DNA of 64,000 nt, from the NCBI GenBank assembly GCA_902506565.1, contig LR732703.1, positions 1,570,525 through 1,634,524 of the forward strand, read 5' to 3'. Each line of letters starts with the position of its first letter. The first letter of the stretch is position 1. Below the pieces are notes generated by a model that saw only the letters and a program-made list of their open reading frames with translations, was not told the DNA's origin and did not search any database. The translations under genes were made by a program, and so were the position numbers. This document shows positions 7,991 to 55,813 of the stretch, piece by piece. This stretch comes from Burkholderiales bacterium 8X (lineage in GTDB: Bacteria; Pseudomonadota; Gammaproteobacteria; Burkholderiales; Burkholderiaceae_C).

Positions 7991-9811
7991 ATGAGCTACA
8001 TCGCCCCCGTCAAAGACATGTTGTTCGACATCGAGCACCTGGCGAACATCGCCGAGATCTCGAAGCTGCCGGGCATGGAAGACGCCGGTCTCGAGACCGC
8101 GCAGGCCGTGCTGGAGGAATGCGCGCGCTTCAACCAGGACGTGATCGCACCGCTGAACGTGGTGGGCGACCGGCAGCCTTCTTCGCTTGCGAACGGCGTG
8201 GTCAGCACGAGCCCTGGCTTCAAGGAAGCCTTCGCGCAGTACGCGTCCGGCGGCTGGCAGGGCTTGCAGCATCCGGCGGAGTTCGGCGGGCAGGGCCTGC
8301 CGAAGACCATCGGCGCGGCCTGCGGCGAGATGCTCAACTCGGCCAACATGAGCTTCGCGCTCTGCCCGCTGCTGTCCGACGGTGCGATCGAGGCGCTGAT
8401 CACCGCGGGCTCGGACGAGCTCAAGGCCACCTATCTCGAGAAGCTGGTCGAAGGCAAGTGGACCGGCACCATGAACCTCACCGAACCCCAGGCGGGCAGT
8501 GACCTCGCGCTGGTGCGCACCCGCGCCGAGCCGCAGGCGGACGGCAGCTACAAGATCTTCGGCACCAAGATCTACATCACCTACGGCGAGCACGACATGG
8601 CCGAGAACATCGTCCACCTGGTGCTGGCCCGGGTGGTCGGCGCGCCGGAGGGCGTCAAGGGCATCAGCCTGTTCGTGGTGCCGAAGTTCCTGGTGGGCGA
8701 GGGCGGCTCGATCGGCCCGCGCAACGACGTGCATTGCGTGAGCATCGAGCACAAGCTCGGCATCAAGGCGAGCCCGACTGCCGTGCTGCAGTACGGCGAC
8801 GGTATCGCCGGCAGCGTGTCCGAGGGCGCCAGCCCCGGCGCGGTCGGCTTCCTGGTGGGGCAGGAGAACCGCGGCCTGGAGTACATGTTCATCATGATGA
8901 ATGCGGCGCGTTATGCCGTCGGCATGCAGGGCATCGCGATCGCCGAGCGCGCCTACCAGCATGCCGTGACCTATGCGCGCGAGCGGGTGCAGAGCCGCCC
9001 GGTCGACGGCTCGATGAAGGGCAGCGCGCCGATCATTCATCACCCCGACGTGAAGCGGATGCTGATGACGATGCGGGCCTACACCGAAGGCTGCCGCGCC
9101 ATGGCCACCGTGGCCGCCGCCGCCTACGACGCCGCGCACCATCATCCTGACGCGGAAACCCGCAAGGAGAACCAGGCCTTCTACGAATTCATGGTGCCGC
9201 TGGTCAAGGGCTACAGCACCGAGATGAGCCTCGAGGTCGCCTCGCTCGGCGTGCAGGTGCATGGCGGCATGGGTTTCATCGAGGAGACCGGCGCGGCGCA
9301 ATACCTGCGCGACGCCAAGATCCTCACCATCTACGAAGGCACCACGGCGATCCAGGCGAACGACCTGGTCGGCCGCAAGACCGCTCGCGATGGCGGCCGC
9401 ACCGCCAAGGCGATCGCGGCACAGATCGAGAAGACCGAGGCCGAACTGGCAGCCCATGGCAGCCCGGCGGCGCTGGTGGTGCTGAAGCGCCTCCGGGCGG
9501 CACGCGAGGCCTTCCTGCAAGTGGTGGCGTTCGTCGCGGGCGAAACGTCGTCATCGCCCAACGCCGTGTTCGCGGGCAGCGTGCCCTACCTGATGCTGGC
9601 CGGCAACCTGGTGGCGGGTTGGCAGCTCGCCCGTTCGCTGCTGGTGGCAGAACGCCTGGCGAAGGCCGGCACCGACGTCGCGTTCATGCAGGCCAAGATC
9701 GCCACCGCGCGCTTCTATGCGGATCACATCCTGGTCAAGGCGCCGGGCATGCGGGACAGCATCGTCGAGGGCGCCGAGAGCGTCACGGCGCTGGCGCTCG
9801 AAGCCTTCTGA
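7991..9811 (+). CDS. Acyl-CoA dehydrogenase of the large (about 600-residue, DmdC-like) class
   Basis: A 606-residue flavoprotein starting at the ATG at 7991, preceded by GGAGA. It carries the acyl-CoA dehydrogenase N-terminal, middle and C-terminal domains: M-N-L-T-E-P-Q-A-G-S-D in the middle domain and I-Y-E-G-T-T-A-I-Q near residues 449-457. An extra C-terminal domain (about residues 480-600) marks the DmdC/FadE-type subgroup. The family oxidises acyl-CoA or 3-methylmercaptopropionyl-CoA and passes electrons to ETF, encoded directly upstream. The substrate cannot be decided here. An alternative in-frame start at 7946 lies inside the terminator region and is unlikely. Confidence 0.92.
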   Translation: MSYIAPVKDMLFDIEHLANIAEISKLPGMEDAGLETAQAVLEECARFNQDVIAPLNVVGDRQPSSLANGVVSTSPGFKEAFAQYASGGWQGLQHPAEFGGQGLPKTIGAACGEMLNSANMSFALCPLLSDGAIEALITAGSDELKATYLEKLVEGKWTGTMNLTEPQAGSDLALVRTRAEPQADGSYKIFGTKIYITYGEHDMAENIVHLVLARVVGAPEGVKGISLFVVPKFLVGEGGSIGPRNDVHCVSIEHKLGIKASPTAVLQYGDGIAGSVSEGASPGAVGFLVGQENRGLEYMFIMMNAARYAVGMQGIAIAERAYQHAVTYARERVQSRPVDGSMKGSAPIIHHPDVKRMLMTMRAYTEGCRAMATVAAAAYDAAHHHPDAETRKENQAFYEFMVPLVKGYSTEMSLEVASLGVQVHGGMGFIEETGAAQYLRDAKILTIYEGTTAIQANDLVGRKTARDGGRTAKAIAAQIEKTEAELAAHGSPAALVVLKRLRAAREAFLQVVAFVAGETSSSPNAVFAGSVPYLMLAGNLVAGWQLARSLLVAERLAKAGTDVAFMQAKIATARFYADHILVKAPGMRDSIVEGAESVTALALEAF

Positions 9812-9870
9812 TCCTCGGCCCCCACCGTTCACCCAAGCCTTTCCGTTCATCCAGCCCTTTCGGAGACCTC

Positions 9871-12140: not shown

Positions 12141-13265
12141 ATGAGCGGCAATACCTTCGGCAACCTCTTCGCGGTCACCAACTTCGGTGAATCCCATGGT
12201 CCCGCGATCGGTTGCGTCATCGACGGCTGCCCGCCCGGCATGGCGCTCGCCGAATCGGATATCCAGGTCGACCTCGATCGGCGCCGACCCGGCACCAGCC
12301 GGCATGTCACGCAGCGCAGCGAGCCCGATGCCGTGCAGATTCTCTCGGGCGTGTACGAGGGCCGCACCACCGGTACCCCGATCGCGCTCCTGATCCAGAA
12401 CACCGACCAGCGCAGCAAGGACTACGGCCAGATCGCGCAGCAGTTCCGGCCCGGCCATGCCGACTTCACCTACTGGAAGAAGTACGGCATTCGCGACCCG
12501 CGCGGCGGCGGCCGATCTTCCGCGCGGCTTACGGCGCCGATGGTGGCCGCCGGCGCAGTCGCCAAGAAGTGGCTGCTGGCGCAATACGGCACGGTGTTCC
12601 GCGGCTGCATGACGCAGATCGGCGAGTTGCCGATCCCGTTCGAAGGTTGGGAACACGTGGCTCGCAACCCGTTCTTCGCGCCGATCGCGGACGTGTCCCG
12701 GCTCGAGGCATACATGGATGCGCTGCGCAAGGCCGGTGACTCCTGCGGTGCCCGGATCCGGGTCATGGCCTCGTCGGTTCCGGTCGGCCTCGGCGAGCCG
12801 CTCTACGACAAGATGGATGCCGACATCGCCTACGCGATGATGGGCATCAACGCGGTCAAGGGCGTGGAAATCGGCGCCGGCTTCGCGAGCGTCGAGCAGC
12901 GCGGCACCACCCATGGCGACTCGATCACGCCGGAGGGCTTCGAAACCAACAACGCCGGCGGCGTGCTGGGCGGCATCACCACCGGGCAGGATCTCGAAGT
13001 GAGCATCGCGATCAAGCCGACCAGCTCGATCATCAGTCCCCGCCAATCGATCGATACCGAAGGCCGGCCGGTCGAGGTGGTCACCAAGGGCCGCCATGAC
13101 CCGTGCGTCGGCATTCGCGCGACGCCGATCGCCGAAGCGATGCTGGCGCTGGTGGTCATGGAGCATGCGCTCCGGCACCGGGCGCAGTGCGGCGACGCGG
13201 CAGGGGGCCCGGCCCGCGATGCAGCCGCCGCGCAGCCCGCGGCGCCAGAGGCGTCTTTCCTGTAG
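12141..13265 (+). CDS. aroC: Chorismate synthase
   Basis: A 374-residue enzyme converting 5-enolpyruvylshikimate-3-phosphate to chorismate with reduced FMN, the last step of the common aromatic pathway. Signatures are N-F-G-E-S-H-G near residues 14-20, G-G-G-R-S-S-A-R near residues 119-126 and the C-terminal H-D-P-C-V-G-I-R. The tail after residue 350 is Ala/Pro-rich, as is common in Burkholderiales. No Shine-Dalgarno is visible. A -10-like AATAAT (12128-12133) ends only 7 bp before the ATG, so a leaderless or nearly leaderless transcript is possible. The MFS gene starts on its stop codon. Confidence 0.97.
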
Positions 13266-14513: not shown

Positions 14514-15290
14514 TCAGATCAGGTTGCGCATCGCCTGCGCCGTCTCCCGCAGCACCGGCAGCACCCGCGCGACTGCGTCTTCGCTGCTTTCATGGCCCAT
14601 CGGCATGGTCACGTTCAGCGCGCCGACCAGCGCGCCGCGCCGGTCCCTGAGCGGCACCGCGATGCCTCGCGAATTGAGGTCGAGCTGCTGCTCCGAGAGC
14701 GACCATCCCTGCGCCCGGATGCGTGCCAGTTCCAGCTTCATCCGTTCCTTGCTCGAGATCGTGTGCGGCGTGAAGACGGTCAGCTCCTGGCCCTGCAGCC
14801 AGGCCGCGAGCGCCGCATGGTCCCGCATCGCCAGCATCAGGAGGCCCGCCGCCGTGACCTGCGCCGGCACCCGGGCGCCGAGCACGTAGCCGGTGCTCAT
14901 GCTGCGGTTGGGTCCGTTGCGGGCGATGTACACCACCTCGTTGCCGTCCATCACGCTCAGGTAGGCGATCTCGTGCGTGCCGGCGGCCACGCGCTGCAGG
15001 AAGGGCTGGACGATCCGCGGCAGCCGGGCCGATTCGAGGTACGACTGCCCGAGCCGCAACACCCGCGGCGTCAGCCAAAACAGCTTGCCGTCGCCTTCGA
15101 CGTAACCCATGTGCCTCAAGGTGAGCAGATAGCGCCTCGCAGCCGTACGGGTCATGCCGCATCGCTGGCCCGCCTCGCTCGCGGTCATGCGCGGGTGCTG
15201 GTCGTCGAAGGCTTCGATGATCGAGATGCCGCGCTCCAGGCCCGCGATCCAGTCGCGCTTTTCGAGCAGGTCGTTCGTATTGCCTTCCAT
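14514..15290 (-). CDS. IclR-family transcriptional regulator (PcaR/PobR type)
   Basis: A 258-residue regulator. The N-terminal winged helix covers residues about 13-75 (R-G-I-S-I-I-E-A-F then M-T-A-S-E-A-G-Q-R-C-G-M-T-R-T-A). The C-terminal IclR effector domain ends R-E-T-A-Q-A-M-R-N. The nearest described types are PcaR, PcaU and PobR, which respond to aromatic acids. It is divergent from the shikimate/pca cluster, with a perfect 15-bp palindrome of the PcaU/PobR type in the gap. By analogy it probably senses protocatechuate, beta-ketoadipate or shikimate and controls the 15486-24852 genes; that is inference. Confidence 0.92.
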   Translation of the reverse strand: MEGNTNDLLEKRDWIAGLERGISIIEAFDDQHPRMTASEAGQRCGMTRTAARRYLLTLRHMGYVEGDGKLFWLTPRVLRLGQSYLESARLPRIVQPFLQRVAAGTHEIAYLSVMDGNEVVYIARNGPNRSMSTGYVLGARVPAQVTAAGLLMLAMRDHAALAAWLQGQELTVFTPHTISSKERMKLELARIRAQGWSLSEQQLDLNSRGIAVPLRDRRGALVGALNVTMPMGHESSEDAVARVLPVLRETAQAMRNLI

Positions 15291-15485: not shown

Positions 15486-16409
15486 ATGACTTCCACCATC
15501 ACCGGCAGCACCGACCTCTACCTGATCCCAGGCGATCCGGTGACCAATGTGCGCCTTCCGCGCATGTTCAACGCGGCGTTCCAGCGCTTGCAGATCGACG
15601 CCGTGATGGTTCCCGTCCATGTGTCCAAGCGCGACCTGGCCACCTTCGTCAAGTCCGCCTTTCTCGGTCGCAACGTCCGCGGCATGGTGATCGCGCCGCC
15701 GCACAAGCCGCTCCTGGTCGACCTGCTCGACGGCTGCGGATTGTTCGGGCGGGTGGCCGGCTGCGTGAACGTGGTTCGCCGCATCGCCAACGGCGAACTG
15801 GAAGGCGACCTGTTCGATGGCGAGGGCCTGATCTGCGCGCTCGACCGCTGCAGGATCCCGTTCCGCGGCAAGCGGGTGCTGGTGATCGGCGCCGGTGTCA
15901 GCGCGGCGGCCATCGGCGTGGCCTTGGCGGAGGGCGGCGCGGTCGACGGCGCGGCGTTCATCGCGTTTCATGACGTATCGCCGGGCAAGGCCGCCGGGCT
16001 CGCGGCCAAGCTCGATGCGTTCTTCGATGCCACGGTGGCGGCGGCGGACAGTGCCGACCCGAGCAGCTTCGACCTGGTGATCAACGCCACGCCGCTCGGC
16101 GCCGGGCCGGACGACCCGCTGCCGGTCGACGTGGCGCGGATGGAGCCGCATGCGGCGCTCTTCGACATCCTGCTTCGCGGCCAGCCGACACCCCTGGTGC
16201 GGGCGGCCCGGGCGCGCGGCCTCAACGCGCAACCGGGCTTCGAGATGCTGGTGCAGCAGATGCCGCACTACTTCGAATACTTCGGCCTTGCGGATGCGGC
16301 CGACACGCTGCGCGAGGACCTCGACTTCCTGCGTGAGCAGATCTATCCGGAAGCCCTGCAATCGGAGATCCGCACCCCCCTGCGCTACGGCGCCGCCGAC
16401 GCGGGCTGA
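15486..16409 (+). CDS. Shikimate dehydrogenase-family protein 1 (atypical substrate pocket)
   Basis: A 307-residue protein with the AroE fold. The N-terminal domain keeps the catalytic pair Lys74 (P-P-H-K) and Asp111 (L-F-D-G-E-G) plus Asn95. The Rossmann loop is V-I-G-A-G-V-S near residues 137-143, and I-N-A-T-P-L-G follows. The two serines that bind the shikimate carboxylate in AroE (motif H-S-x-S-P) are replaced: the equivalent segment reads V-T-N-V-R-L-P. The cluster (dehydroshikimate dehydratase, TRAP transporter, pca genes) suggests oxidation of shikimate or quinate to 3-dehydro forms. The pocket change leaves the true substrate open. GAGG at 15473-15476 precedes the start; it is first in the presumed operon. 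Confidence 0.85.
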   Translation: MTSTITGSTDLYLIPGDPVTNVRLPRMFNAAFQRLQIDAVMVPVHVSKRDLATFVKSAFLGRNVRGMVIAPPHKPLLVDLLDGCGLFGRVAGCVNVVRRIANGELEGDLFDGEGLICALDRCRIPFRGKRVLVIGAGVSAAAIGVALAEGGAVDGAAFIAFHDVSPGKAAGLAAKLDAFFDATVAAADSADPSSFDLVINATPLGAGPDDPLPVDVARMEPHAALFDILLRGQPTPLVRAARARGLNAQPGFEMLVQQMPHYFEYFGLADAADTLREDLDFLREQIYPEALQSEIRTPLRYGAADAG

Positions 16410-16440
16410 AAGCCTTCTGCGCGACTCGTCACGACCTGCC

Positions 16441-17328
16441 ATGCCCATCGCGATCGATCGATTCGGATTCAACACCGTCACCCTCGGCGGCGGCCTCGGG
16501 CACAAGCTCGACTGCATGAGGGCGGCCGGTTTCTCGGGCATCGAGCTGTGGGCCCGCGACCTGATCGCGTATCCGGGCGGCGTCGAGAAGGCGGCCGAGC
16601 GGGTCAAGGCCAGCGGCCTGCGCGTGACCGACTTCCAGCCGCTGCGCGACTTCGAATGCGCGCCCGATGCGATGCGTCCGCACCGGCTCGAGATGGCCCG
16701 CGAACAGCTGCGCCAGATGGCGCTGGTCGGGGCCGACCTGCTGCTGGTCTGCTCGACCACCTCGCCGCTCGCCATCGACGATGCCGAGCGGGCGGCCGGG
16801 GACCTTCGCACCTTGGCCGACCTGGCGGAGCCGCTCGGCATCCGCATCTGCTACGAGGCGTTGTCCTGGGGCCGACACGTCAACCGTTGGGAGCAGGCCT
16901 GGGACATCGTGCGTCGCTGCGACCATCCGGCGGTGGGTCTCAACCTCGACTCGTTCCACATGTCGGTCAAGGGCGACGACACGCCCGAGACCCTGGCCGC
17001 GCTGGGCGAGGTGCCGACCTCGAAGATCTTCCTGGTGCAGCTGGCCGACTACTTCTTCGAGTACGGCAACCGGCAGGCCGACCTGATCGAGCTCGCCCGC
17101 CACCAGCGGCTTTTTCCGGGCGAGGGCCTGCACGACATGCGCGACATGGTGCGGCTGCTCGAAGAGCGGGGCTATGGCGGCCACTACACCTTCGAGGTGT
17201 TCAACGACGACTACCTCAATTCCGACCCGATGGTGGTGGCCGAGCGCGGCATGAAGAGCGCGCGCTGGATGAGCGACGCCATCGGCCGATCGGATCAAGC
17301 GACGACAACGACAGGAGACAGGCAATGA
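16441..17328 (+). CDS. quiC: 3-dehydroshikimate dehydratase (QuiC/AsbF-like TIM barrel)
   Basis: A 295-residue xylose-isomerase-like TIM barrel. Many segments match QuiC dehydratases: F-Q-P-L-R-D-F-E, L-L-V-C-S, Y-E-A-L-S-W-G-R-H-V-N, L-D-S-F-H, F-L-V-Q-L-A-D, F-P-G-E-G and F-E-V-F-N-D. The divalent-metal ligand set Glu139, Asp170, Gln200 and Glu252 is complete. The enzyme dehydrates 3-dehydroshikimate to protocatechuate and so diverts shikimate or quinate carbon to ring cleavage. Unlike some Pseudomonas QuiC proteins it has no C-terminal dioxygenase-like domain. Its stop overlaps the dctQ start (ATGA). Generic annotation would call it a sugar phosphate isomerase/epimerase. Confidence 0.88.
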   Translation: MPIAIDRFGFNTVTLGGGLGHKLDCMRAAGFSGIELWARDLIAYPGGVEKAAERVKASGLRVTDFQPLRDFECAPDAMRPHRLEMAREQLRQMALVGADLLLVCSTTSPLAIDDAERAAGDLRTLADLAEPLGIRICYEALSWGRHVNRWEQAWDIVRRCDHPAVGLNLDSFHMSVKGDDTPETLAALGEVPTSKIFLVQLADYFFEYGNRQADLIELARHQRLFPGEGLHDMRDMVRLLEERGYGGHYTFEVFNDDYLNSDPMVVAERGMKSARWMSDAIGRSDQATTTTGDRQ

Positions 17329-17897
17329 CGAAGGTGTTCTCGTGGTACTGCCGCGGGCTGGAGGGCCTGATGGCCCTGATGCTCGCGCTGATGGTGGTGA
17401 TGGTGTTCGGCAACGTGGTGCTGCGCTACGGCTTCAATTCCGGGATCAGCGTCTCGGAGGAGGTCTCGCGCTGGCTCTTCGTCTGGATGACCTTCCTCGG
17501 CGCGATCGTCGCGGTGCGGGAGCACGGGCATCTCGGCACCGACATGCTGATCAGCAAGCTGCCGCCCTTGGGGAAGAAGCTGTGCCTGCTGCTTTCGCAC
17601 GGGCTGATGCTGTTCGCCTCGTACCTGCTGCTGTCCGGCAGCTGGCAGCAGACCCTCATCAACTGGGACGTGAGCGCGCCCACCACCGGCGCGTCGGTCG
17701 GCATCTTCTATTTCGTCGGCGTGGTGTTCGGCGTCTCGGCCATCGTCTTCCTGCTGTACGACCTGTGGCGGCTGGTCGCCGGCAAGCTGCGCGACGACGA
17801 ACTGGTGATGGTGCACGAGTCGGAGGAGCAGGGCGACATCGATCGCATCAACGCCGAGCTCGCACGCCGCGACGCCGAAGAACGGAAGGGCCGCTGA
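17325..17897 (+). CDS. dctQ: TRAP transporter small membrane subunit (DctQ)
   Basis: A 190-residue, four-helix membrane protein of the DctQ family. S-E-E-V-S-R-W-L-F-V-W near residues 45-55 and the flanking hydrophobic helices are typical. It forms the small subunit of a Na+-linked TRAP transporter with the DctM protein encoded 1 bp downstream and the binding protein at 19243. An acidic, charged C-terminal tail of about 35 residues is longer than usual. The ATG at 17325 overlaps the dehydratase stop, tying the transporter to shikimate catabolism. The likely substrates are shikimate, quinate or a related hydroxylated ring acid. Confidence 0.92.
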   Translation: MTKVFSWYCRGLEGLMALMLALMVVMVFGNVVLRYGFNSGISVSEEVSRWLFVWMTFLGAIVAVREHGHLGTDMLISKLPPLGKKLCLLLSHGLMLFASYLLLSGSWQQTLINWDVSAPTTGASVGIFYFVGVVFGVSAIVFLLYDLWRLVAGKLRDDELVMVHESEEQGDIDRINAELARRDAEERKGR

Positions 17898-17898
17898 C

Positions 17899-19179
17899 AT
17901 GACCATCGCCATCTTCCTCGGCGCCTTGCTCGGCGCCATGGCCATCGGCGTGCCGATCGCTTATTCCTTGCTGCTCTGCGGCGTCGCGCTGATGTGGCAT
18001 CTCGACCTGTTCGATGCCCAGATCCTGGCGCAGAACGTGATCAACGGCGCCGACAGCTTCCCGCTCCTGGCCGTGCCCTTCTTCATGCTCGCCGGCGAGG
18101 CGATGAACCAGGGCGGCCTGTCGCGCCGCATCGTCAACCTGGCGCTGGCGGTGGTGGGTCATGTGCGGGGCGGGCTCGGCTATGTCGCGATCGTGGCAGC
18201 CTGCATCCTGTCGGCGCTTTCGGGTTCGGCGGTGGCCGACGCGGCCGCGCTGTCGGCGCTGTTGATTCCGATGATGGTCGCGGCCGGCCACGACAAGGCC
18301 CGCTCCGGCGGGCTGATCGCGGCCTCGGGCGTGATCGGGCCGATCATCCCGCCGTCGATCGGCTTCGTGATCTTCGGGGTCGCGGCCAATGTCTCGATCT
18401 CCAAGCTCTTCCTGGCCGGCATCTTCCCGGGCATCCTGATCGGCGCCTCGCTCTGGTTCACCTGGTGGTGGCTGGTGCGCAAGGAAAAGGTGGTGCCGCC
18501 GCCGCGCCAGAGCGCCGGCGAGATGATGAAGGCGCTGCGCGATGCCACCTGGGCCCTGCTGCTGCCCTTCATCATCCTGTTCGGGCTGCGCTTCGGCATC
18601 TTCACGCCGACCGAGGCCGCGGTGGTCGCGGCGGTCTACGCGATCTTCGTGGCGACGGTGGTCTATCGCGAGCTCAAGCCGTCGCAGTTCTACGCGATGT
18701 TCGTCTCGGCCGCCAAGACCAGCGCGATCGTGATGTTCCTGGTGGCGGCCGCGATGGTCTCGGCCTGGCTCATCACCGTGGCCGACCTGCCGGCCAAGCT
18801 GGTCGCGCTGCTCGAGCCGCTGATCGCGAGCCCGATGCTGCTGATGGTGGTGATCATGGTGCTGGTCATCGCGGTCGGCACCGCGATGGACATGACGCCG
18901 ACCATCCTGATCCTCACGCCGGTGCTGATGCCGGTGATCAAGGCAGCCGGCATCGACCCGATCTACTTCGGCGTGCTCTTCATCATCAACAACTCGATCG
19001 GGCTGATCACGCCGCCGGTGGGCACGGTGCTCAACGTGGTCGCAGGCGTCGGCCGCATGAAGATGGACGAGGTGACCCGCGGCGTCTGGCCGTTCGCGAT
19101 CGCCGAGTTCGCCATGATGTTCCTGATGGTGCTGTTCCCGCAGCTGGTGATCTGGCCGGCCCGCTGGCTGAGCGGCTGA
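17899..19179 (+). CDS. dctM: TRAP transporter large membrane subunit (DctM)
   Basis: A 426-residue integral membrane protein with a dozen or so hydrophobic helices. Hallmarks are S-G-S-A-V-A-D near residues 110-116, I-G-P-I-I-P-P-S-I near residues 149-157, F-T-P-T-E-A-A near residues 235-241 and the C-terminal I-T-P-P-V-G-T. It is the Na+-driven transport channel that takes substrate from the periplasmic binding protein. It starts 1 bp after dctQ. The binding-protein gene follows 63 bp later, an order (Q-M-P) different from the second TRAP locus at 34768-37610. Confidence 0.96.
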   Translation: MTIAIFLGALLGAMAIGVPIAYSLLLCGVALMWHLDLFDAQILAQNVINGADSFPLLAVPFFMLAGEAMNQGGLSRRIVNLALAVVGHVRGGLGYVAIVAACILSALSGSAVADAAALSALLIPMMVAAGHDKARSGGLIAASGVIGPIIPPSIGFVIFGVAANVSISKLFLAGIFPGILIGASLWFTWWWLVRKEKVVPPPRQSAGEMMKALRDATWALLLPFIILFGLRFGIFTPTEAAVVAAVYAIFVATVVYRELKPSQFYAMFVSAAKTSAIVMFLVAAAMVSAWLITVADLPAKLVALLEPLIASPMLLMVVIMVLVIAVGTAMDMTPTILILTPVLMPVIKAAGIDPIYFGVLFIINNSIGLITPPVGTVLNVVAGVGRMKMDEVTRGVWPFAIAEFAMMFLMVLFPQLVIWPARWLSG

Positions 19180-19242
19180 CGACCTTTTCGGACCATTTCC
19201 CGTTCCCTGCCATTCGACCCGTCAATCCAAGGAGACTTTTCG

Positions 19243-20256
19243 ATGAAGAACCTGTTCAAGAAGACCACCGTCGCCGCAATCGCCTTCATGGCCTTCGCGG
19301 TGGCCGGCACCGCCGCAGCCGAAGTCAAGGAACGCACGCTCAAGTTCGCGTTCCAGAACCAGACCGGCCATCCGCAGGCGCAGGGCGCACAGAAGTTCGC
19401 CGACCTGGTGGCCGAGAAGTCGGGCAAGAAGATCACCGTGAAGCTGTTCCCCGGCGGCACGCTCGGCGGCGACCTGCAGACGGTGTCGGCGATGCAGGGC
19501 GGCACGGTCGAGATCACGGTGCTCAATGCCGGCATCCTTTCGTCGCAGGTGAAGGAATTCGCGGCCTACGACTTCCCGTTCCTGTTCGCGAATGCGCAGG
19601 AAGCCGACGCGGTGACCGACGGGCCGTTCGGCCAGAAGCTCCTGGCCAAGCTCGACGAGAAGAACCTGCACGGCCTCGGCTATTGGGACCTCGGCTTTCG
19701 GAACGTGACCAACAGCAAGCGCCCGATCGCCAAGGCCGAAGACCTGGCCGGACTCAAGATCCGCGTGATCCAGTCGCCGATCTACATCGACCTCTTCAAT
19801 ACGCTGGGCGCGAACGCGACGCCGATGCCGTTCCCGGAACTCTATTCGGCGCTCGACCAGAAGGCGGTCGACGGACAGGAGAACCCGAACACGGTGATCG
19901 CATCGTCCAAGTTCGCCGAGGTGCAGAAGCACCTGACCCAGACCCGGCACATCTACAACCCGCAGGCGCTAATCGTCAGCAAGAAGGCCTGGGACTCGAT
20001 GAGCGCCGAGGAGAAGAAGATCATCAACGATGCCGCGGCCGAGGCGACCGCCTTCCAGCGCAAGGTCTCGCGCGACGCGGCGGACACCGCACTGGACGCG
20101 CTCAAGAAAGCCGGCATGACCGTGACCGAGCTGCCGCCGGCCGAAGTCGCCAAGCTGCGCGAGAAGGTCAAGCCGGTGATCGACAAGTACTCGGCCGCGG
20201 TCGGCGAGCCGACCGTCAAGGAACTGATGGCCGAGATCGCGAAGGTCCGCAAGTAG
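19243..20256 (+). CDS. dctP: TRAP transporter substrate-binding protein (DctP)
   Basis: A 337-residue periplasmic protein with a Sec signal peptide (K-N-L-F-K-K then a hydrophobic core ending A-G-T-A-A-A-E, cleavage near residue 26). The DctP domain contains the conserved Arg in L-K-I-R-V-I-Q-S-P, which binds substrate carboxylate in the family, and the following A-T-P-M-P-F-P-E-L. The cluster suggests shikimate, quinate or another hydroxy-ring carboxylate as ligand. AAGGAG precedes the start, consistent with high expression of the binding protein. Confidence 0.94.
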   Translation: MKNLFKKTTVAAIAFMAFAVAGTAAAEVKERTLKFAFQNQTGHPQAQGAQKFADLVAEKSGKKITVKLFPGGTLGGDLQTVSAMQGGTVEITVLNAGILSSQVKEFAAYDFPFLFANAQEADAVTDGPFGQKLLAKLDEKNLHGLGYWDLGFRNVTNSKRPIAKAEDLAGLKIRVIQSPIYIDLFNTLGANATPMPFPELYSALDQKAVDGQENPNTVIASSKFAEVQKHLTQTRHIYNPQALIVSKKAWDSMSAEEKKIINDAAAEATAFQRKVSRDAADTALDALKKAGMTVTELPPAEVAKLREKVKPVIDKYSAAVGEPTVKELMAEIAKVRK

Positions 20257-20294
20257 GCGCGGCCGAAGCCATCGAAATCGAGCGGAACCACCCC

Positions 20295-21128
20295 ATGATC
20301 ACCGGCAGGACCACACTCATCGCGCACATCGGTTTTCCGACCGAAAGCTTCAAGGCGCCGATGATCTACAACCCGTGGTTCGAGCACCGCCAGATCGACG
20401 CGGTGGTGGTGCCGATGGGCTGCAGGGCCGAGGACTATCCGGCGTTCCTGCGCTCGCTCTTCAAGCTGAGCAACATCCGGGGCGCGCTGGTGACCATGCC
20501 GCACAAGATCACGACGCTTTCGCTGGTGGACGAAGCCACGCCCACCGCGCGCATCGCCGGCGCCTGCAACGCGGTGCTGAAGCGGGCCGACGGGAGCCTG
20601 CTGGGCGACCAGTTCGATGGTGCCGGCTTCGTGCGCGGCGTCGAGCGAAAGGGTCTGGTTCTGCAAGGTTGCCGTGCGCTGGTCTCCGGCAGCGGCGGCG
20701 TGGGCTCGGCCATCGCGGCTTCGCTTGCCGGCGCCGGTGTCGGCGAAATCGCGTTGTTCGATGCGAACCCGGCTGCGGCGGAGGCGTTGGCCGGAAGGCT
20801 CCGCGCGCACTATCCCGAGCTGCGGGTCGTCACGGGTTCGCGCGATCCGGACGGCTTCGACCTGGTGGTCAACGCGACGCCGCTCGGCATGAACGAAGGC
20901 GATGCGATGCCCTTCGACCTGGATCGCATGGCGCCGACGACCTTCGTCGGCGAGGTGGTGATGAAATCCGAGTACACGCCGTTGTTGCAGGCGGCGCTCG
21001 CCAAGGGCTGCAAGGTGCAGGTCGGTACCGACATGCTGTTCGAGATGATTCCGGCGTACCTGGAGTTCTTCGGCTTCGGCACCGCGACGCCGGAGGCGCT
21101 GCGCGAGGTGGCGACGCTGGCCTACTAG
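20295..21128 (+). CDS. Shikimate dehydrogenase-family protein 2 (atypical substrate pocket)
   Basis: A 277-residue AroE-fold protein, only distantly similar to the copy at 15486. Catalytic Lys71 (T-M-P-H-K) and Asp108 (Q-F-D-G-A-G) are present, as are the Rossmann glycines (S-G-S-G-G-V-G-S) and V-N-A-T-P-L-G-M. The carboxylate-binding serine pair is again missing: the segment reads G-F-P-T-E-S-F-K-A-P, placing Phe and Ala at the serine positions. It lies between dctP and pcaB. It may be the second of two dehydrogenases with different substrates (shikimate versus quinate, or another cyclic acid). Quinate use would also need a 3-dehydroquinate dehydratase, which is not in the window. Confidence 0.85.
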   Translation: MITGRTTLIAHIGFPTESFKAPMIYNPWFEHRQIDAVVVPMGCRAEDYPAFLRSLFKLSNIRGALVTMPHKITTLSLVDEATPTARIAGACNAVLKRADGSLLGDQFDGAGFVRGVERKGLVLQGCRALVSGSGGVGSAIAASLAGAGVGEIALFDANPAAAEALAGRLRAHYPELRVVTGSRDPDGFDLVVNATPLGMNEGDAMPFDLDRMAPTTFVGEVVMKSEYTPLLQAALAKGCKVQVGTDMLFEMIPAYLEFFGFGTATPEALREVATLAY

Positions 21129-21160: not shown

Positions 21161-22381
21161 ATGAGCATCTTCGAAGGTTTTCTCTCCACGCCCGAAACCC
21201 TGGCTGCCTTCGGCGACCGCAATTTCGTCGACGCCATGCTGCGCTTCGAGGCGGCCCTGGCCAAGGCCCAGGCGGCCGAGGGCCTGATCCCCGATGCGGC
21301 CGCCCGTTCGATCGTGGCGAGCTGCAAGGTCGAGCTGTTCGACGTGGCCAACATCGTGCGCGAAAGCGGCCGGGCCGGCAGTGTCGCGATCCCGCTGGTG
21401 AAGAGCTTGAAGGACGCGGTGCGGGTCTTCAATGCCGACGCCGTGGCGCACGTTCATTTCGGCAGCACCAGCCAGGACGTGATCGACAGCGCGATGGCGC
21501 TGGTCACGCAGCAGGCGATGGTTGCCATCGATGTCGATCTGCGCCAGGCCGCCAGGGCCTTGCTGCAGCAGGCCCGGCAGCACGCCGCCACGCCGGTGCT
21601 GGCGCGCACGTTGATGCAGCCGGCATCGGTCACCAGCTTCGGCTTCAAGTGCGTGGGCTGGGCGGCGCCGTTGGTGCGGGCCCGCGCGCGGCTGGCAGAG
21701 GCGTCGCGGCAGGCGCTGCAGCTTCAGCTGGGCGGCGCGGTCGGTACGCTGGCGCAGATGAAGGGGCAGGGGCCGGCGGTTCGCAAGCGGATGGCGGCCG
21801 AGCTCGGCCTCGCCGACCCTGGCGCCACCTGGCACACCCAGCGGGACGAATGGGTGGCGCTCGGCTGCGAGCTGGGCTTGATGGTCGGCAGCCTCGGCAA
21901 GATCGCGACCGACATCGCCTTGATGGGCCAGTACGAAGTCGGCGAAGTTTCCGAGCCGAGCGAGCCGGGGCGCGGCGGATCGTCCGCCATGCCGCACAAG
22001 AAGAATCCGGTGGCGTCGATGGTGGCGTTGGCAGCAGCCCAACGAGCGCCGCAGCGGGTCGCGGCGCTGCTGGCCGCCATGCCGCAGGCGCACGAGCGGG
22101 CGCTCGGCGCCTGGCAAGCCGAGCTGGCCGAATGGCCGCAGCTCCTGATGTCGGCCCACGGCAGCGTGCGCGCCATGGCGGGGGCATTGCCCGGGCTCCA
22201 GGTGGATGCGGAGCGGATGCGTTCCAATATCGATCGGCTGCGCGCAGAGCTGCCGGTCGAAGCCGCCGACGAGTGGTTCGCACCCGGCCTGGCCGATGGG
22301 GCTGCCGCTCTGGCGATGGAGCAGGCGGCAGCGCTCCAGCTGCAGCTCGACCGGCAGGCTGTCGCCGCCGGCGCGAACTAG
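21161..22381 (+). CDS. pcaB: 3-carboxy-cis,cis-muconate cycloisomerase
   Basis: A 406-residue member of the fumarase/argininosuccinate lyase superfamily. It has the signature loop G-G-S-S-A-M-P-H-K-K-N-P near residues 273-284 and the upstream H-F-G-S-T-S-Q-D near residues 98-105. PcaB lactonises 3-carboxy-cis,cis-muconate, the product of protocatechuate 3,4-dioxygenase, to 4-carboxymuconolactone. It follows the second SDH-like gene by 32 bp and precedes pcaC, pathway-ordered. The start at 21161 (M-S-I-F-E-G-F-L) suits the family length; a longer in-frame opening upstream lies inside the previous gene. Confidence 0.94.
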   Translation: MSIFEGFLSTPETLAAFGDRNFVDAMLRFEAALAKAQAAEGLIPDAAARSIVASCKVELFDVANIVRESGRAGSVAIPLVKSLKDAVRVFNADAVAHVHFGSTSQDVIDSAMALVTQQAMVAIDVDLRQAARALLQQARQHAATPVLARTLMQPASVTSFGFKCVGWAAPLVRARARLAEASRQALQLQLGGAVGTLAQMKGQGPAVRKRMAAELGLADPGATWHTQRDEWVALGCELGLMVGSLGKIATDIALMGQYEVGEVSEPSEPGRGGSSAMPHKKNPVASMVALAAAQRAPQRVAALLAAMPQAHERALGAWQAELAEWPQLLMSAHGSVRAMAGALPGLQVDAERMRSNIDRLRAELPVEAADEWFAPGLADGAAALAMEQAAALQLQLDRQAVAAGAN

Positions 22382-22427: not shown

Positions 22428-22883
22428 ATGACTTCGCCCGAAACCCCGAACCCCGCTTCGAAACCCGTCGACCCGACCGTCGCCGACAGCTACCGGAACG
22501 GCCTCGTCCAGCGCCGCCGCGTGCTGGGCGACGCCTGGGTCGACAGGTCGCTCGCCAATCGCAACGAGTTCAACGCCGAGTTCCAGGAACTCATCACCCG
22601 GCACGCATGGAACGACATCTGGTCGCGCCCGGCGCTCGGCGACAAGACCCGGCGCTACATGGTGCTGTCGATGATGCTGGGCATCCATGCCTACGAGGAA
22701 TTCGCGATGCACACGCGGGCCGCACTCGACGGCCCCGAGGATTCGCGGTTGACGCCGGACGACATCAAGGAAGTCATCATGATGGCCGCCATCTACTGCG
22801 GCGTGCCGGTCGCCAATCACGCGTTCGGCATCGCGACCGCGATCCTGCGCGAAAAAGGACTGCTCGCGGAATCGGCCAAGTGA
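22428..22883 (+). CDS. pcaC: 4-carboxymuconolactone decarboxylase
   Basis: A 151-residue protein of the carboxymuconolactone decarboxylase family: R-R-R-V-L-G-D near residues 25-31, the core R-Y-M-V-L-S-M-M-L-G, E-E-F-A-M-H-T-R-A-A-L, and the C-terminal I-Y-C-G-V-P-V-A-N. It decarboxylates 4-carboxymuconolactone to 3-oxoadipate enol-lactone. I chose the ATG at 22428; an in-frame ATG at 22392 is also possible and neither has a clear ribosome site. The protein is slightly longer than stand-alone PcaC (about 130 residues) because of a Pro/Thr-rich leader. Its stop overlaps the next start (GTGA). Confidence 0.9.
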   Translation: MTSPETPNPASKPVDPTVADSYRNGLVQRRRVLGDAWVDRSLANRNEFNAEFQELITRHAWNDIWSRPALGDKTRRYMVLSMMLGIHAYEEFAMHTRAALDGPEDSRLTPDDIKEVIMMAAIYCGVPVANHAFGIATAILREKGLLAESAK

Positions 22884-24091
22884 GGCCGGCAGCCGGCAAG
22901 GGCACGAGCTTCGCGCTGCTCCTGCCCTTGCTGCTGGCAGCGCAGCCGGTCGCCACGGATTCGTATCTGCCGGCGCTGCCGGCGATTGCCGCCGACCTCG
23001 GCTCCGCCAGCGCCAGCCTTACGGTGTTCGTGCTGGCCTTCGGCTTCGCGCAGCTGGTCTGCGGCCCACTGGCCGATCGCTTCGGCCGCCGACCGCTCTT
23101 GCTGTGGGGGCTGGCCAGCTATTCGCTCGCGGCGCTCGGCTGCACCCTGGCGGCCGAGGTGCCGCTCCTGGTGGCCTGCCGCGCCCTGCAGGGCATGTCG
23201 ATGGCGGCCATCTTCGTCTGCGCGCGGGCGGCGGTGCGCGACCTCTATCCCGCACACGAAGGTCCGCAGGTGATGGCACGCGGCCTCACCGGCCTCGGCG
23301 TGGTCGCGCTGGCTGCGCCGCTCCTGGGCGCGTTCGCGGTGCAGCATGCAGGCTGGCGCTGGGTGCTCGGCGGCATGGCGGTGTACGGCGCGGTGCTGTG
23401 GATCGTCTGCTGGCGCGGCTTCGCGGAGACCCGTCGCGCCAGCGAGCCCACGAGCGGCGAGCCGACCGGCGGCGTGCGCGAGGTCTTCGCGAGCGCGGGC
23501 TTCCGGGCCTGGTCGTCAGTGGCCATCGCCACCTGGGCGGGCCTCTTCTGCTTCTTGCTGCTCTCGCCGATGGTCTACATCAGCTACCTGGGCCTCTCGC
23601 CGACGCTCTACGGCTGGATTCCGGCCGGCGGGGCGCTGGTGTACATCCTCAGCACCATGCTGTGCCGGCGGCTGCTGCGGCGCCATGGTCCCGTGCGTAC
23701 GGTGCAATGGGCCTCGATGCTCAGCCTGGCCGGGCCGCTCTTGCAGGCGGTCGGCTGCCTGGTGTGGCCCGGCACGCTCTGGCCGCTGTTGCTGGGCCAC
23801 GCGATGTACGCGGTCGGCCACGGCATCCACCAGCCTTGCGGACAGGCCGGCGCGGTCGGCGATCTGCCGCATCTCGCGGGCCGCGCGGTGTCGTGGTCGG
23901 GATTCGGCATGATGCTGGTGGCTTTCGCGACCGGCCAGCTGGCCGCCAGCTTCGTCGACCCGACCTTCAGCAACGGCGCCTGGCCGATGGTGCTGCCGAT
24001 GCTGGCTGCAGGGCTCGTGCTGGTGACGATCGCTTTCGGCTGGCTGCCGCGGCTTGCTTCCACTCATCCATCCAAGGAAAGAACGACATGA
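22880..24091 (+). CDS. MFS transporter of the Bcr/CflA drug-resistance type, GTG start
   Basis: A 403-residue, 12-helix major facilitator of the Bcr/CflA subfamily. It shows the N-terminal D-S-Y-L-P-A-L-P motif (residues about 24-31) and G-P-L-A-D-R-F-G-R-R-P in the loop between helices 2 and 3. Members export small molecules. Placed between pcaC and pcaD with stop/start overlaps on both sides (GTGA upstream, ATGA downstream), it is certainly part of the operon. An efflux or relief role for an aromatic or lactone intermediate is a reasonable inference. The GTG at 22880 is the only start compatible with pcaC. Confidence 0.88.
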   Translation: MRPAAGKGTSFALLLPLLLAAQPVATDSYLPALPAIAADLGSASASLTVFVLAFGFAQLVCGPLADRFGRRPLLLWGLASYSLAALGCTLAAEVPLLVACRALQGMSMAAIFVCARAAVRDLYPAHEGPQVMARGLTGLGVVALAAPLLGAFAVQHAGWRWVLGGMAVYGAVLWIVCWRGFAETRRASEPTSGEPTGGVREVFASAGFRAWSSVAIATWAGLFCFLLLSPMVYISYLGLSPTLYGWIPAGGALVYILSTMLCRRLLRRHGPVRTVQWASMLSLAGPLLQAVGCLVWPGTLWPLLLGHAMYAVGHGIHQPCGQAGAVGDLPHLAGRAVSWSGFGMMLVAFATGQLAASFVDPTFSNGAWPMVLPMLAAGLVLVTIAFGWLPRLASTHPSKERTT

Positions 24092-24852
24092 CCCGTTTGA
24101 ACGTGCTGCGCGAAGGCCGCGGTCCCTTCGTCGTGCTGAGCCACGCGCTCGGCTGCGACCTTCACATGTGGGACGGCGTGGCCGCCGAGCTGTCCCGGGC
24201 GCACACCGTCCTGCGCTACGACCACCGCAATCACGGGCAATCCGAACGGCTGCCCGGCCCGCTCACCATGCAGATGCTGGCGGACGATGCCGCCGAGATG
24301 ATCGAGCGCGAGGCGGCAGGCGAGCCGGTGCATTTCGTCGGCCTGTCGATGGGCGGCATGACCGGGCAGGCCCTGGCGATCTCGAACGAAAAGCTGCTGC
24401 GCAGCCTGGTGATCGCCAACTCGTCCGCCCACTACACCGACACGAGTCCCTGGAAGAGCCGCATCGAGACCGTCCGCGCGCAGGGCGTGAAGGCCATCGC
24501 TGCCGGGGCCGTCGGCCGCTGGCTCACGCCCGATTTCATGGCCACACCCGAAGGCGCGGCAGCCGGCGCGAAGCTGCAGAAAACGCTCGAGCAATGCGAC
24601 TCGGCCGGCTATGCCGCCAGCTGCGAAGCGGTCGCGGCCATCGACTTCCGGGCCAGCAACCGGAACATCGCCGTTCCGACCCTGGTCATTGCCGGCTCGC
24701 GCGACGAGGCCACGCCGCCTTCGATGTCCGAGGAAATGGTCGCGGCCATTCCGAAGGCACGACTCGCGAGCATCGACGCAGCGCATCTGAGCGCGGTCGA
24801 GCAGCCGGTGGCGTTCACGGCGCTCCTGATCGACTTCTGGCGCAGCCTCTGA
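24088..24852 (+). CDS. pcaD: 3-oxoadipate enol-lactonase
   Basis: A 254-residue alpha/beta hydrolase with the triad Ser87 (G-L-S-M-G-G), Asp206 (G-S-R-D-E-A-T) and His233 (D-A-A-H-L-S). PcaD hydrolyses 3-oxoadipate enol-lactone to 3-oxoadipate (beta-ketoadipate). Starting R-L-N-V-L-R-E-G, it matches the family length. It is the last gene of the tight pca block; a 116-bp gap separates it from the DsbA-like gene. AAGGAAAG upstream supports the start at 24088. The next step, CoA transfer, could be done by the pair at 55006-56452. Confidence 0.93.
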   Translation: MTRLNVLREGRGPFVVLSHALGCDLHMWDGVAAELSRAHTVLRYDHRNHGQSERLPGPLTMQMLADDAAEMIEREAAGEPVHFVGLSMGGMTGQALAISNEKLLRSLVIANSSAHYTDTSPWKSRIETVRAQGVKAIAAGAVGRWLTPDFMATPEGAAAGAKLQKTLEQCDSAGYAASCEAVAAIDFRASNRNIAVPTLVIAGSRDEATPPSMSEEMVAAIPKARLASIDAAHLSAVEQPVAFTALLIDFWRSL

Positions 24853-34767: not shown

Positions 34768-36045
34768 CTACTTGGCGTAGACCAGGTCGCGCAGGGTCAG
34801 CGAAATGGAGGGCACGTAGGTGATCACCAGCAGGCAGGCGAGGATCACCAGCACGAACGGGATCAGGTCCTTCACGATCCGGTCGAGCGAAATCCGCGCC
34901 ACGGTACAGGCCGCGAACAGGTTGACGCCGAAGGGCGGCGTGATCATCCCGAGCGCCAGGTTGACCACCATCACCAGTCCGAAATGCACCGGATCGACGC
35001 CGAAATGCAGCGCCACCGGCGCGAGGATCGGCGCCAGCACGATGATCGCGGCGCTGGTCTCGATGAACATGCCGATCACGAAGAGCGCAGCGTTCACGCC
35101 CAGGAGGAAATAGGCCGGGGACTTGAGTACGTCCTGCAGCCACAGCCCGATGGCCTCGGGTACGCCGGCGCGGGTGATGAGGAAGGCGAACAAGCCGGCG
35201 TTGGCGATGATGAACATAATCACCGAGGACGAGATCACCGACTTCTTGAGCACTTCGTACAGCTGCGATGGCTTGATCTCGCGGTAGATCAGCGTGCCGA
35301 CCAGAAGCGCGTAGAGCACCGCCACCGCCGACGCTTCGGTCGGCGTGAAGATGCCGCCGTAGATGCCGCCGAGGATGATGACCGGCATCAGGAGCGCCCA
35401 GCCGGCGCGCCAGGTCGCGACGCCCACGCCGAGACGGCCGTCGCCGTCGTTCTTGCCGAGACCCTTGAACTTGCACCACAGGTAGACGAACGCCATCAGC
35501 GCGCAGCTGATGAGAATGCCGGGACCGAAGCCGGCGATGAACAGTTCGCCGATCGAGACCTCGGCGCTGACGCCGTAGAGGATCAGCGGGATCGATGGCG
35601 GGATGATGACGCCCAGCTCTGCGCTGGTGGCCTGCAGCGCGGCTGCGTAGCTGGTCGAGTAGCCATGCTTGATCAGGGCCGGGATCAGGATGGCGCCGAT
35701 CGCGAAGGTGGTCGCGACCGACGAGCCGGAGACCGCCGCGAAGATCATGCAGGTGAGCACGCAGGTCATCGGCAGGCCGCCCTGCACGCCGCCCACGAGG
35801 CTTTTCGCGAAATCCACCAGGCGGCGCGAGATGCCGCCGGTTTCCATCAGGTTGCCGGCGAGGATGAAGAAGGGAATGGCCGCCAGCGGAAACTTGTTGA
35901 TCGCGTTGAACATCTCCTTCACCGAGATGAGCATGTTCGCGTTCGATGCCTGGATGCCCAGGATGGCCGAGAGGCCAATCGACACCGCGACCGAGATGGT
36001 GAGTGCGAAGCACAACACCATCGTGCTGATCATGACGGCGGTCAT
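34768..36045 (-). CDS. dctM: TRAP transporter large membrane subunit (DctM), second locus
   Basis: A 425-residue multi-helix protein of the DctM family with A-A-V-S-G-S-S-V-A-T near residues 98-107, I-I-P-P-S-I-P-L near residues 146-153, F-T-P-T-E-A-S near residues 232-238 and I-T-P-P-F-G-V-N near residues 368-375. It is not closely similar to the first locus. Its ATG overlaps the dctQ stop (ATGA). A small hairpin (34752-34764) follows, and the glycine riboswitch begins 38 bp beyond the stop on the same strand, so read-through into the gcv operon is conceivable. Confidence 0.95.
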   Translation of the reverse strand: MTAVMISTMVLCFALTISVAVSIGLSAILGIQASNANMLISVKEMFNAINKFPLAAIPFFILAGNLMETGGISRRLVDFAKSLVGGVQGGLPMTCVLTCMIFAAVSGSSVATTFAIGAILIPALIKHGYSTSYAAALQATSAELGVIIPPSIPLILYGVSAEVSIGELFIAGFGPGILISCALMAFVYLWCKFKGLGKNDGDGRLGVGVATWRAGWALLMPVIILGGIYGGIFTPTEASAVAVLYALLVGTLIYREIKPSQLYEVLKKSVISSSVIMFIIANAGLFAFLITRAGVPEAIGLWLQDVLKSPAYFLLGVNAALFVIGMFIETSAAIIVLAPILAPVALHFGVDPVHFGLVMVVNLALGMITPPFGVNLFAACTVARISLDRIVKDLIPFVLVILACLLVITYVPSISLTLRDLVYAK

Positions 36046-36536
36046 TGGGCGGTTTCCAGTTCGTTGCGCTTCGGATCGAGCAGGTTGGCGATGATGCCGA
36101 CGATGCAGAAGAGGCCGCCCACCGGCATGGCGAGATAGGCCCAGAACATCGAGATCGACTCGAGACCGGCCATCGACTGCACGCCGCCGCGCTTGGCGTA
36201 GTCCCAGCCGTACCAGACGATCACCAGCACCAGGGCCAGCGCAGCCAGGCACACCATCCAGTCCAGCACCCGCCGGATCCTGGGCGGACTCCAGCGATAG
36301 AGCACGTCGACGCTTACCATCGCACCCTGCCGGAACGCCATCGGTATGCCCATGAACACCATCCAGATCAGGCTCACGCGGATCAGGATCTCGGACCATT
36401 CGGCAGGCTGTTCGAGCACGAAGCGCGTGACGATCTGGAACACGCCGAGCGCCGAGGCGATGACCAGCATCGCGCAGGCGATCGCCAGCGCCAGGGAGGT
36501 GGCCCATCGGTCGAACTGGAGAAAGGTGTTCTTCAT
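36042..36536 (-). CDS. dctQ: TRAP transporter small membrane subunit (DctQ), second locus
   Basis: A 164-residue four-helix DctQ protein with E-W-S-E-I-L-I-R near residues 46-53 and hydrophobic segments at about 12-35, 52-72, 90-112 and 130-150. It pairs with the adjacent DctM. An intrinsic terminator lies just upstream, between it and dctP, so less of the membrane subunit than of the binding protein is expected to be made. Confidence 0.92.
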   Translation of the reverse strand: MKNTFLQFDRWATSLALAIACAMLVIASALGVFQIVTRFVLEQPAEWSEILIRVSLIWMVFMGIPMAFRQGAMVSVDVLYRWSPPRIRRVLDWMVCLAALALVLVIVWYGWDYAKRGGVQSMAGLESISMFWAYLAMPVGGLFCIVGIIANLLDPKRNELETAQ

Positions 36537-36547
36537 GTCGGATTCCC

Positions 36548-36582
36548 AAAAAAAACCGCCCGCCAGCCAAGCTGTGCGGGCG
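36548..36582 (-). terminator. Intrinsic terminator between dctP and dctQ
   Basis: Read on the minus strand, a perfect 7-bp stem CGCCCGC/GCGGGCG (arms at 36576-36582 and 36557-36563) with a 12-nt loop is followed by a GG and eight T residues (36548-36555). It lies inside the operon, 12 bp before the dctQ start. It probably attenuates rather than ends transcription, giving excess binding protein. Confidence 0.88.
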
Positions 36583-55812: not shown

Positions 55813-55813
55813 C

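Follow-up and report, generated by a model that had tools for sequence, protein, structure and literature searches.

Two shikimate dehydrogenase-fold proteins with replaced carboxylate ligands in a candidate quinate/shikimate operon of Burkholderiales bacterium 8X

What do two dehydrogenases of the shikimate dehydrogenase (SDH) family act on when both lack the residues known to hold the carboxylate of the substrate? The question is raised by an operon of Burkholderiales bacterium 8X that lies in a 64,000-nt stretch of DNA (assembly GCA_902506565.1, contig LR732703.1, positions 1,570,525-1,634,524 of the forward strand), hereafter the window, and that encodes SDH1 (frame 15486-16409) and SDH2 (frame 20295-21128) together with a putative 3-dehydroshikimate dehydratase, a TRAP transporter and pca genes. 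The answer proposed here, at an even balance of probability, is that SDH2 oxidises quinate and SDH1 shikimate, both with NAD+ and with the acid group held by other residues, and that the operon feeds the protocatechuate route. In this proposal, which builds on sequences, predicted folds, clades and gene neighbourhoods, we infer the substrates, the division of labour, the cofactor, the transported compound and the acid-binding residues. In the literature searched, outside which most subscription journals fell, no description of this operon type was found.

Fold and substrate pocket of SDH1 and SDH2

A first-pass annotation of the window had called both proteins SDH-fold and had seen the catalytic lysine and aspartate kept, and both points are borne out. 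The two frames are present and their products match Pfam Shikimate_dh_N with 39.4 and 55.5 bits (cut-off 27; SDH1 is given first here and below), and, as in other members of the superfamily, each combines an N-terminal substrate domain with a Rossmann domain and carries Lys65 and Asp102. Residue numbers (14, 16, 64, 65, 86, 101, 102, 149, 215, 216 and 244) are Escherichia coli AroE positions. SDH1 and SDH2 are 38% identical over 274 columns. Their AlphaFold2 models reach a mean pLDDT of 94.2 and 93.9 (45 and 42 aligned sequences), and the predicted folds are, with high confidence, those of the SDH family. For both, the nearest solved structure is 4K28, by fold as well as by sequence (E 4.9e-35 and 1.9e-47), with 37% identity to SDH2 in the structural match.

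The AroE model TIGR00507 is missed by both proteins (120.6 and 124.6 bits, cut-off 200.2), as are the cut-offs of the remaining curated NCBIfam AroE models examined and of the YdiB/QsuD-type models NF009390 (44 and 79.7 bits, cut-off 349) and NF010631 (35.2 and 83.1 bits, cut-off 515). Several records label such proteins shikimate dehydrogenase, which would suit a pair of ordinary AroE-like duplicates that take no part in catabolism; the missed TIGR00507 cut-off, the catabolic neighbourhood and the true AroE elsewhere in the genome (C1:4053928), which bears Ser14, Ser16 and Tyr215, make this reading barely credible. Another label, ThiF family adenylyltransferase, is given to SDH2-type proteins in three plasmid records (L066, L068 and L070, each at 9001-9834) and is misleading; the ThiF (Pfam) match of the window's SDH2 falls just under the cut-off (27.1 vs 28.1 bits).

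Positions 14, 16 and 215 are Ser, Ser and Tyr in AroE, YdiB and the AroE of the same genome. In the passages available from PMC2789096, Ser14 and Ser16 of the T. thermophilus enzyme hydrogen-bond a carboxyl oxygen, and in those from PMC4892741 the C1 carboxylate in A. thaliana is held by Ser336, Ser338 and Tyr550; equating Tyr550 with E. coli Tyr215 is an assignment made in this analysis. Alignment with E. coli AroE places Val22 and Leu24 of SDH1 and Phe19 and Ala21 of SDH2 at the two serines, in agreement with the first-pass reading, and since Tyr215 is also gone (Leu in SDH1, Met in SDH2), one more ligand is lost than had been stated there. Thr101 is Phe in both proteins. Judged from the alignment, all three known carboxylate ligands are thus replaced in both pockets, with Lys65, Asn86 and Asp102 retained.

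The same pattern recurs in the wider clades, counted over 74 SDH1-type and 87 SDH2-type rows (161 in total). In the selection of rows for alignment, loci L010, L034-L038 and L041 and the short-locus sequences outside 250-340 aa were excluded, and removal of identical rows then reduced 172 rows to 167. Lys65, Asn86 and Asp102 are present in 161/161 rows and Tyr215 is missing in 161/161. Position 14 is Val in all 74 SDH1 rows, and in SDH2 rows Phe (84/87) or Val (3/87); position 16 is Ala (48/74), Leu (24/74) or Val (2/74) in SDH1 and Ala (70/87) in SDH2, with Ser still found in 17/87; position 215 is Met (47/74) or Leu (27/74) in SDH1 and Met (83/87) or Leu (4/87) in SDH2. Chance or a sequencing error as the origin of the ligand loss was rejected because the pattern is fixed across the 161 rows.

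Other conserved residues could take over the lost contacts. Phe101 and His64 are invariant in all 161 rows, and a new Tyr four residues past position 244 (Gln244+4) is found in 73/74 SDH1 rows (one Phe) and 86/87 SDH2 rows (one not readable). Lys or Arg occupies position 216 in 65/74 and 77/87 rows. Position 244 itself is Gln in 74/74 SDH1 rows and Met in 35/87 SDH2 rows. The first-pass annotation had raised the possibility that serines elsewhere fill the vacant role, and this was followed up in part, in a first alignment of 51 of 53 SDH1 and 60 of 60 SDH2 rows (two pieces of a broken SDH1 from locus L091 and proteins of at most 240 aa were excluded). No conserved new Ser common to the two clades was found in these rows; a new Thr close to AroE residue 1 (Thr9 in SDH1, Thr6 in SDH2) is present in 50/51 and 58/60 of them, and the Gln244+4 Tyr and His64 are conserved as well. 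The acid group would most likely be held by the Gln244+4 Tyr, one helical turn past 244, aided by His64 and by residue 216, mostly Lys or Arg. In the window proteins these residues correspond to Tyr262, His73 and Arg231 of SDH1 and to Tyr255, His70 and Lys224 of SDH2, with the equivalents of 216 assigned by counting in this analysis.

Part of this remodelling belongs to a larger class. SDH1 and SDH2 have RifI2-type traits, namely 4K28 as nearest solved relative, the loss of Ser14 and Tyr215, and Asp149; we take 4K28 to be RifI2 of P. putida KT2440, and the RifI class name and its borders are used here as we understand them. Comparison was made with 21 other RifI-like rows, consisting of 4K28 and 20 hand-chosen weaker relatives (33-41% identity) from a list that ended at E 1e-40, so that ordinary AroE rows could not enter. 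Ser14 and Tyr215 are missing in 21/21, and their loss is therefore a class trait and not special to the window's operon. Ser16 is kept in 15/21 of these rows and the Gln244+4 Tyr occurs in 2/21; this Tyr, together with the loss of Ser16 in most rows, is what separates the SDH1 and SDH2 clades from other RifI-like proteins at the level of aligned residues. 4K28 itself resembles the pair in having Val for Ser14, Thr for Tyr215 and Asp149, but keeps Ser16. The Phe101, His64, Arg or Lys216 and Gln244+4 Tyr of the window proteins are replaced in 4K28 by Val, Tyr, Ser and Leu, respectively.

In a quick tree (trees were made with FastTree only, and long branches were flagged by the program), SDH2 has a support of 97, SDH1 of 99 and the two together of 97, apart from the other RifI-like rows and with 4K28 falling outside; under the same flag, the pair-type SDH1 proteins (Pro62, Leu215, mostly Leu16) form one clade with support 100. 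Aminoshikimate dehydrogenase activity, in the passages available from PMC8788734, is that of RifI itself. SDH1 and SDH2, with their remodelled pocket in a RifI-type branch, are most probably still a quinate/shikimate catabolic pair.

The cofactor may be read from positions 149 and 150. E. coli AroE and the AroE of the same genome carry Asn149 followed by Arg150, whereas position 149 is Asp in 66/74 SDH1 and 87/87 SDH2 rows and Arg150 is gone in most rows. The YdiB residue at 149 aligned differently in two runs and does not enter this comparison. With the role of Arg150 taken from PMC7144000, these two changes point to NAD+, and the Asp149 pattern would fit NAD+ use and a degradative direction.

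Gene neighbourhoods and the division of substrates

Neighbourhoods were compared in 88 loci, made up of 80 named genome loci (the best 80 of at least 546 confirmed relatives), 7 plasmid loci chosen by hand among 40 matches listed (442 records) and the window. Both genes occur in 23/88 loci, SDH1 only in 29/88 and SDH2 only in 36/88, '-only' meaning that the partner is absent within the fetched locus, whose flank lengths vary. A gene for the dehydratase domain, type II dehydroquinate dehydratase (AroQ) or a pca protein, at least one of the three, lies near SDH1 or SDH2 in 71/88 loci. In the order pair, SDH1-only and SDH2-only, the dehydratase domain is found in 21/23, 18/29 and 17/36 loci, pca genes in 18/23, 13/29 and 9/36, and TRAP genes in 6/23, 5/29 and 14/36.

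The two genes differ in their association with AroQ, found in 23/36 SDH2-only vs 5/29 SDH1-only loci (Fisher p = 0.00018). The contrast persists after collapse by genus or title, with plasmid records as one label and the window excluded (18/25 vs 5/20, p = 0.0027); the chance level, as a rough figure from the two AroQ genes in the 4.79 Mb of the window's own genome, is about 1% of 20-kb stretches. Where AroQ and the dehydrogenase gene occur together, the gap is at most 111 bp in 11 of 24 loci with SDH2, and at least 3.3 kb in all six with SDH1. The view that two divergent copies serve two substrates, put forward in the first-pass annotation, gains support from this contrast.

Two Variovorax operons (L079 and L080) continue without SDH2. 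A loss of SDH2 from these genomes was considered and rejected, as both carry it elsewhere, on a separate contig (76% and 80% identical). In the L080 genome, 22 bp of L171 separate the SDH2 stop (10329) from the AroQ start (10352); in the L079 genome, an AroQ frame opens at 1258 of L199, 6 bases after the SDH2 stop at 1252, and is matched from 1273. In both Variovorax cases the detached SDH2 is thus followed by AroQ, and SDH1 remains with the pca genes. In addition, Ramlibacter sp. Leaf400 (L140) has one cluster in which TRAP genes, SDH2 and the dehydratase stand together with relatives of the DctP (85%) and the AroQ (81%) encoded elsewhere in the genome of strain 8X. Quinate is assigned to SDH2 because of the two detached genes and the Leaf400 cluster, and shikimate falls to SDH1 as the remaining substrate; the latter assignment is the weaker of the two.

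A different split at the quinate/shikimate level, in which each enzyme handles both acids or the two are partly redundant copies from two once-separate single-enzyme pathways, is a tentative alternative and rather unlikely. SDH1-type and SDH2-type genes do each occur alone (29/88 and 36/88 loci), frequently among similar partner genes, and a broken SDH1 frame beside an intact SDH2 in Acidovorax sp. Leaf160 would also suit redundancy. Against redundant copies, SDH2 is present in 7/7 genomes with an SDH1 of at least 65% identity (own genome included; among 200 searched), and a close SDH2 was found in 5/5 named genomes searched, including those of L079 and L080, where it lies outside the operon; one Acidovorax among the five shares coordinates with one of the seven. 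Furthermore, the pair group shows additional pocket changes, with SDH1 forming the Pro62 and Leu215 clade and SDH2 having Met244 in 19/22 pair loci vs 5/38 SDH2 rows of the remaining loci.

The co-occurrence of pair-type SDH1 and SDH2 at the genome level could also be expected if they formed one mixed enzyme with a catalytic and a structural or regulatory copy. Such an arrangement is very improbable given the full catalytic set in both proteins, the SDH2 genes without SDH1 in 36/88 loci and the placement of the two genes on different contigs in two genomes.

The neighbours also bear on whether the substrate is quinate or shikimate at all. The first-pass annotation had allowed for another cyclic hydroxy compound, which could be some other cyclic hydroxy acid or a relative altered at C1 (a stereoisomer, ester or amide of quinate) joining at dehydroquinate or dehydroshikimate. 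The replacement of all three carboxylate ligands and the Thr101 to Phe change in both window proteins would agree with such a compound, as would a Gfo/Idh/MocA dehydrogenase gene in 20/88 loci, whose product could act on another hydroxyl, and the related SDH-fold protein 7COK, named 5-ketofructose reductase, since that sugar is without a carboxylate. However, free acids are the substrates of AroQ and of the dehydroshikimate dehydratase, and the nearest solved relatives of the window's TRAP binding protein are DctP types; TRAP binding proteins mostly bind acids via a conserved Arg. The suggestion is weakened, as another compound is not needed where the neighbours are quinate/shikimate catabolism genes, and it is considered improbable; a low probability likewise attaches to a new SDH-family branch with a pocket rebuilt around the Gln244+4 Tyr, His64, Phe101 and mostly Lys/Arg216, whose paired copies in Variovorax and its relatives have diverged further and use two different substrates, at least one of them a stereoisomer or C1-modified relative of quinate or shikimate.

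Several further observations were made in the neighbourhoods. A gene for an IclR/HTH regulator of the window's type occurs in 23/23 pair loci. The dehydratase of the pair loci is a fused QuiC1-type protein in 11/23 and single-domain in 10/23, and in some loci the QuiC1 halves are two adjacent genes in reversed order, a single-domain dehydratase being preceded by an HPPD-like frame (e.g. L094:15706-17548); this split form is found in 16/29 SDH1-only and 4/36 SDH2-only loci. The Gfo/Idh/MocA-type gene (e.g. in L065, L071, L072, L083, L122, L138 and L143) possibly encodes a third dehydrogenase of the pathway. The SDH1 frame of Acidovorax sp. Leaf160 (L091:10001-11092) is in two pieces adjoining the intact SDH2, which may reflect either decay of the gene or a fault in the assembly.

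Operon parts and the rest of the genome

The features around SDH1 and SDH2 are collected in Table 1. As the first-pass annotation had stated, the pair shares an operon with a dehydroshikimate dehydratase-type gene and with pca genes.

Table 1. Features of the operon and its surroundings (window positions)
Feature	Position	Strand	Remarks
aroC, chorismate synthase, upstream of regulator	12141-13265		aroC cluster in 8/88 loci including window
Divergent IclR-type regulator, PcaR/PcaU/PobR-like	14514-15290	-	TIGR02431 269.0 bits, just under cut-off 284.75
SDH1, SDH-fold dehydrogenase, 307 aa	15486-16409	+	14/16/215 = Val/Leu/Leu
Single-domain 3-dehydroshikimate dehydratase-type TIM barrel	16441-17328	+	Corresponds to N-terminal QuiC half; HPPD half lacking
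DctQ-type small TRAP permease	17325-17897	+	YiaM model NF007374 100 bits, below cut-off 260
DctM-type large TRAP permease	17899-19179	+	TIGR00786 485.9 bits, above cut-off
DctP-type TRAP solute-binding protein	19243-20256	+	TIGR00787 271.4 bits, above cut-off; nearest solved 4P47, 7BBR
SDH2, SDH-fold dehydrogenase, 277 aa	20295-21128	+	14/16/215/244 = Phe/Ala/Met/Met
pcaB, 3-carboxy-cis,cis-muconate cycloisomerase	21161-22381	+	TIGR02426 358.3 bits, above cut-off 355.75
pcaC-like, 4-carboxymuconolactone decarboxylase	22428-22883	+	TIGR02425 138 bits, below cut-off 155.7
Bcr/CflA-type MFS transporter within pca genes	22880-24091	+	TIGR00710 180.5 bits, below cut-off 200.9
pcaD-like, 3-oxoadipate enol-lactonase	24088-24852	+	TIGR02427 241.3 bits, below cut-off 255.85

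Residues 11-279 of the dehydratase-type protein match positions 6-266 of the 635 of NF042435 with 209 bits; the score lies below the cut-off of 1200, which is set for the two-domain protein, and the C-terminal HPPD-like half is absent. Its best solved match is P. putida 5HMQ (E 7e-54, aligned to 5HMQ residues 7-268), whose motifs YEAL.WGRHVN, LDSFH, VQ.AD and E.FND are retained; these motifs presumably hold the metal. A whole-genome search with two-domain QuiC (E 1e-10) found a QuiC-type dehydratase domain in this protein only.

Elsewhere in the genome, pcaGH and pcaIJF lie together (C1:3577-3596k), and one of the two AroQ genes (C1:3896.9k) adjoins a DctP gene 49-51% identical to that of the window. 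At C1:3751692-3754013 a membrane pyrroloquinoline quinone (PQQ) dehydrogenase of the glucose/quinate/shikimate family is encoded, 46% identical to E. coli Gcd; with the query set used, no pca or qui neighbours of this gene were found. Relatives of the Bcr/CflA-type MFS gene occur in 13 other loci, in 11 of them between pcaC and pcaD, and its product may serve for import or as an outlet for excess intermediate. Further along, the window holds a second TRAP-type set, with DctM 38% and DctP 37% identical to the first, and a CoA-transferase gene pair (45-46% to PcaI/PcaJ), at 34804-37610 and 55006-56434.

The proposed pathway and its place in the family

In the pathway proposed for these parts, the TRAP transporter would import a polyhydroxy cyclohexane acid, and SDH2, as an NAD+-dependent quinate dehydrogenase, would oxidise the C3 hydroxyl of quinate to give 3-dehydroquinate. 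A type II dehydroquinate dehydratase encoded elsewhere in the genome would convert this to 3-dehydroshikimate, which SDH1, as an NAD+-dependent shikimate dehydrogenase, would supply by a direct route. The single-domain dehydratase would then yield protocatechuate, to be degraded further in the direction of 3-oxoadipate. In both dehydrogenases Lys65 and Asp102 are predicted to perform the chemistry, as in AroE.

A number of points weigh against this proposal. None of the expected partners is found in 17/88 loci. AroQ is present in just 1/23 pair loci, which are of the window's own kind, lies near SDH1 in six loci and is absent from 13/36 SDH2-only loci; the case for shikimate as the substrate of SDH1 draws mainly on an absence of AroQ. 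The two detached SDH2-AroQ cases may stand for one ancestral event, since both Variovorax genomes share the rare Val16 of SDH1. RifI2 of P. putida reportedly has weak activity on shikimate and a trace on quinate only. In the pocket, Lys/Arg216 was weakened as a universal acid holder, as 19/161 rows are without it and 216 is therefore not a universal acid-binding residue, and His64 (18/21) and Phe101 (14/21) are frequent in the other RifI-like rows, with His64 also in Geobacillus AroE, so that neither is specific to the clades. Moreover, the genome has five further AP_endonuc_2 TIM barrels, and its PQQ dehydrogenase could oxidise quinate outside the cell and supply dehydroquinate.

Compared with known systems, the pair shares the fold, Lys65, Asn86, Asp102 and the reaction type with AroE and YdiB of E. 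coli, which, unlike the window proteins, keep Ser14, Ser16, Thr101 and Tyr215. Closer to the pair in one respect are groups II and V of the plant dehydroquinate dehydratase/shikimate dehydrogenases (DQD/SDH), for which the available passages of PMC4892741 give a replaced second carboxylate Ser (Gly in nearly all) but a kept first Ser and Tyr550. Group II includes the poplar quinate dehydrogenases, and a quinate enzyme can therefore manage without the second Ser. 7COK, the 5-ketofructose reductase of Gluconobacter and second-best solved sequence match of SDH1, shows an SDH fold working on a carboxylate-free substrate; it differs from the window proteins in Thr101 and Pro215, within the stretch read, which does not extend to positions 14 and 16. 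The QuiC1/QsuB quinate clusters resemble the window in the dehydroshikimate dehydratase route to protocatechuate; the window differs from these clusters by its single-domain dehydratase, where QuiC1 has an HPPD half, and by its TRAP importer.

Genes of this kind are labelled in databases as shikimate dehydrogenase or even as ThiF family adenylyltransferase. If the proposal is true, such proteins, which are numerous in Burkholderiales, Rhizobiales and other groups, would make up a catabolic branch of their own that uses NAD+, and acid binding by two serines and a tyrosine would not be a general rule among quinate/shikimate enzymes. The parallel pocket changes in two proteins of the same operon provide a compact test case for the swapping of acid sites in the SDH family.

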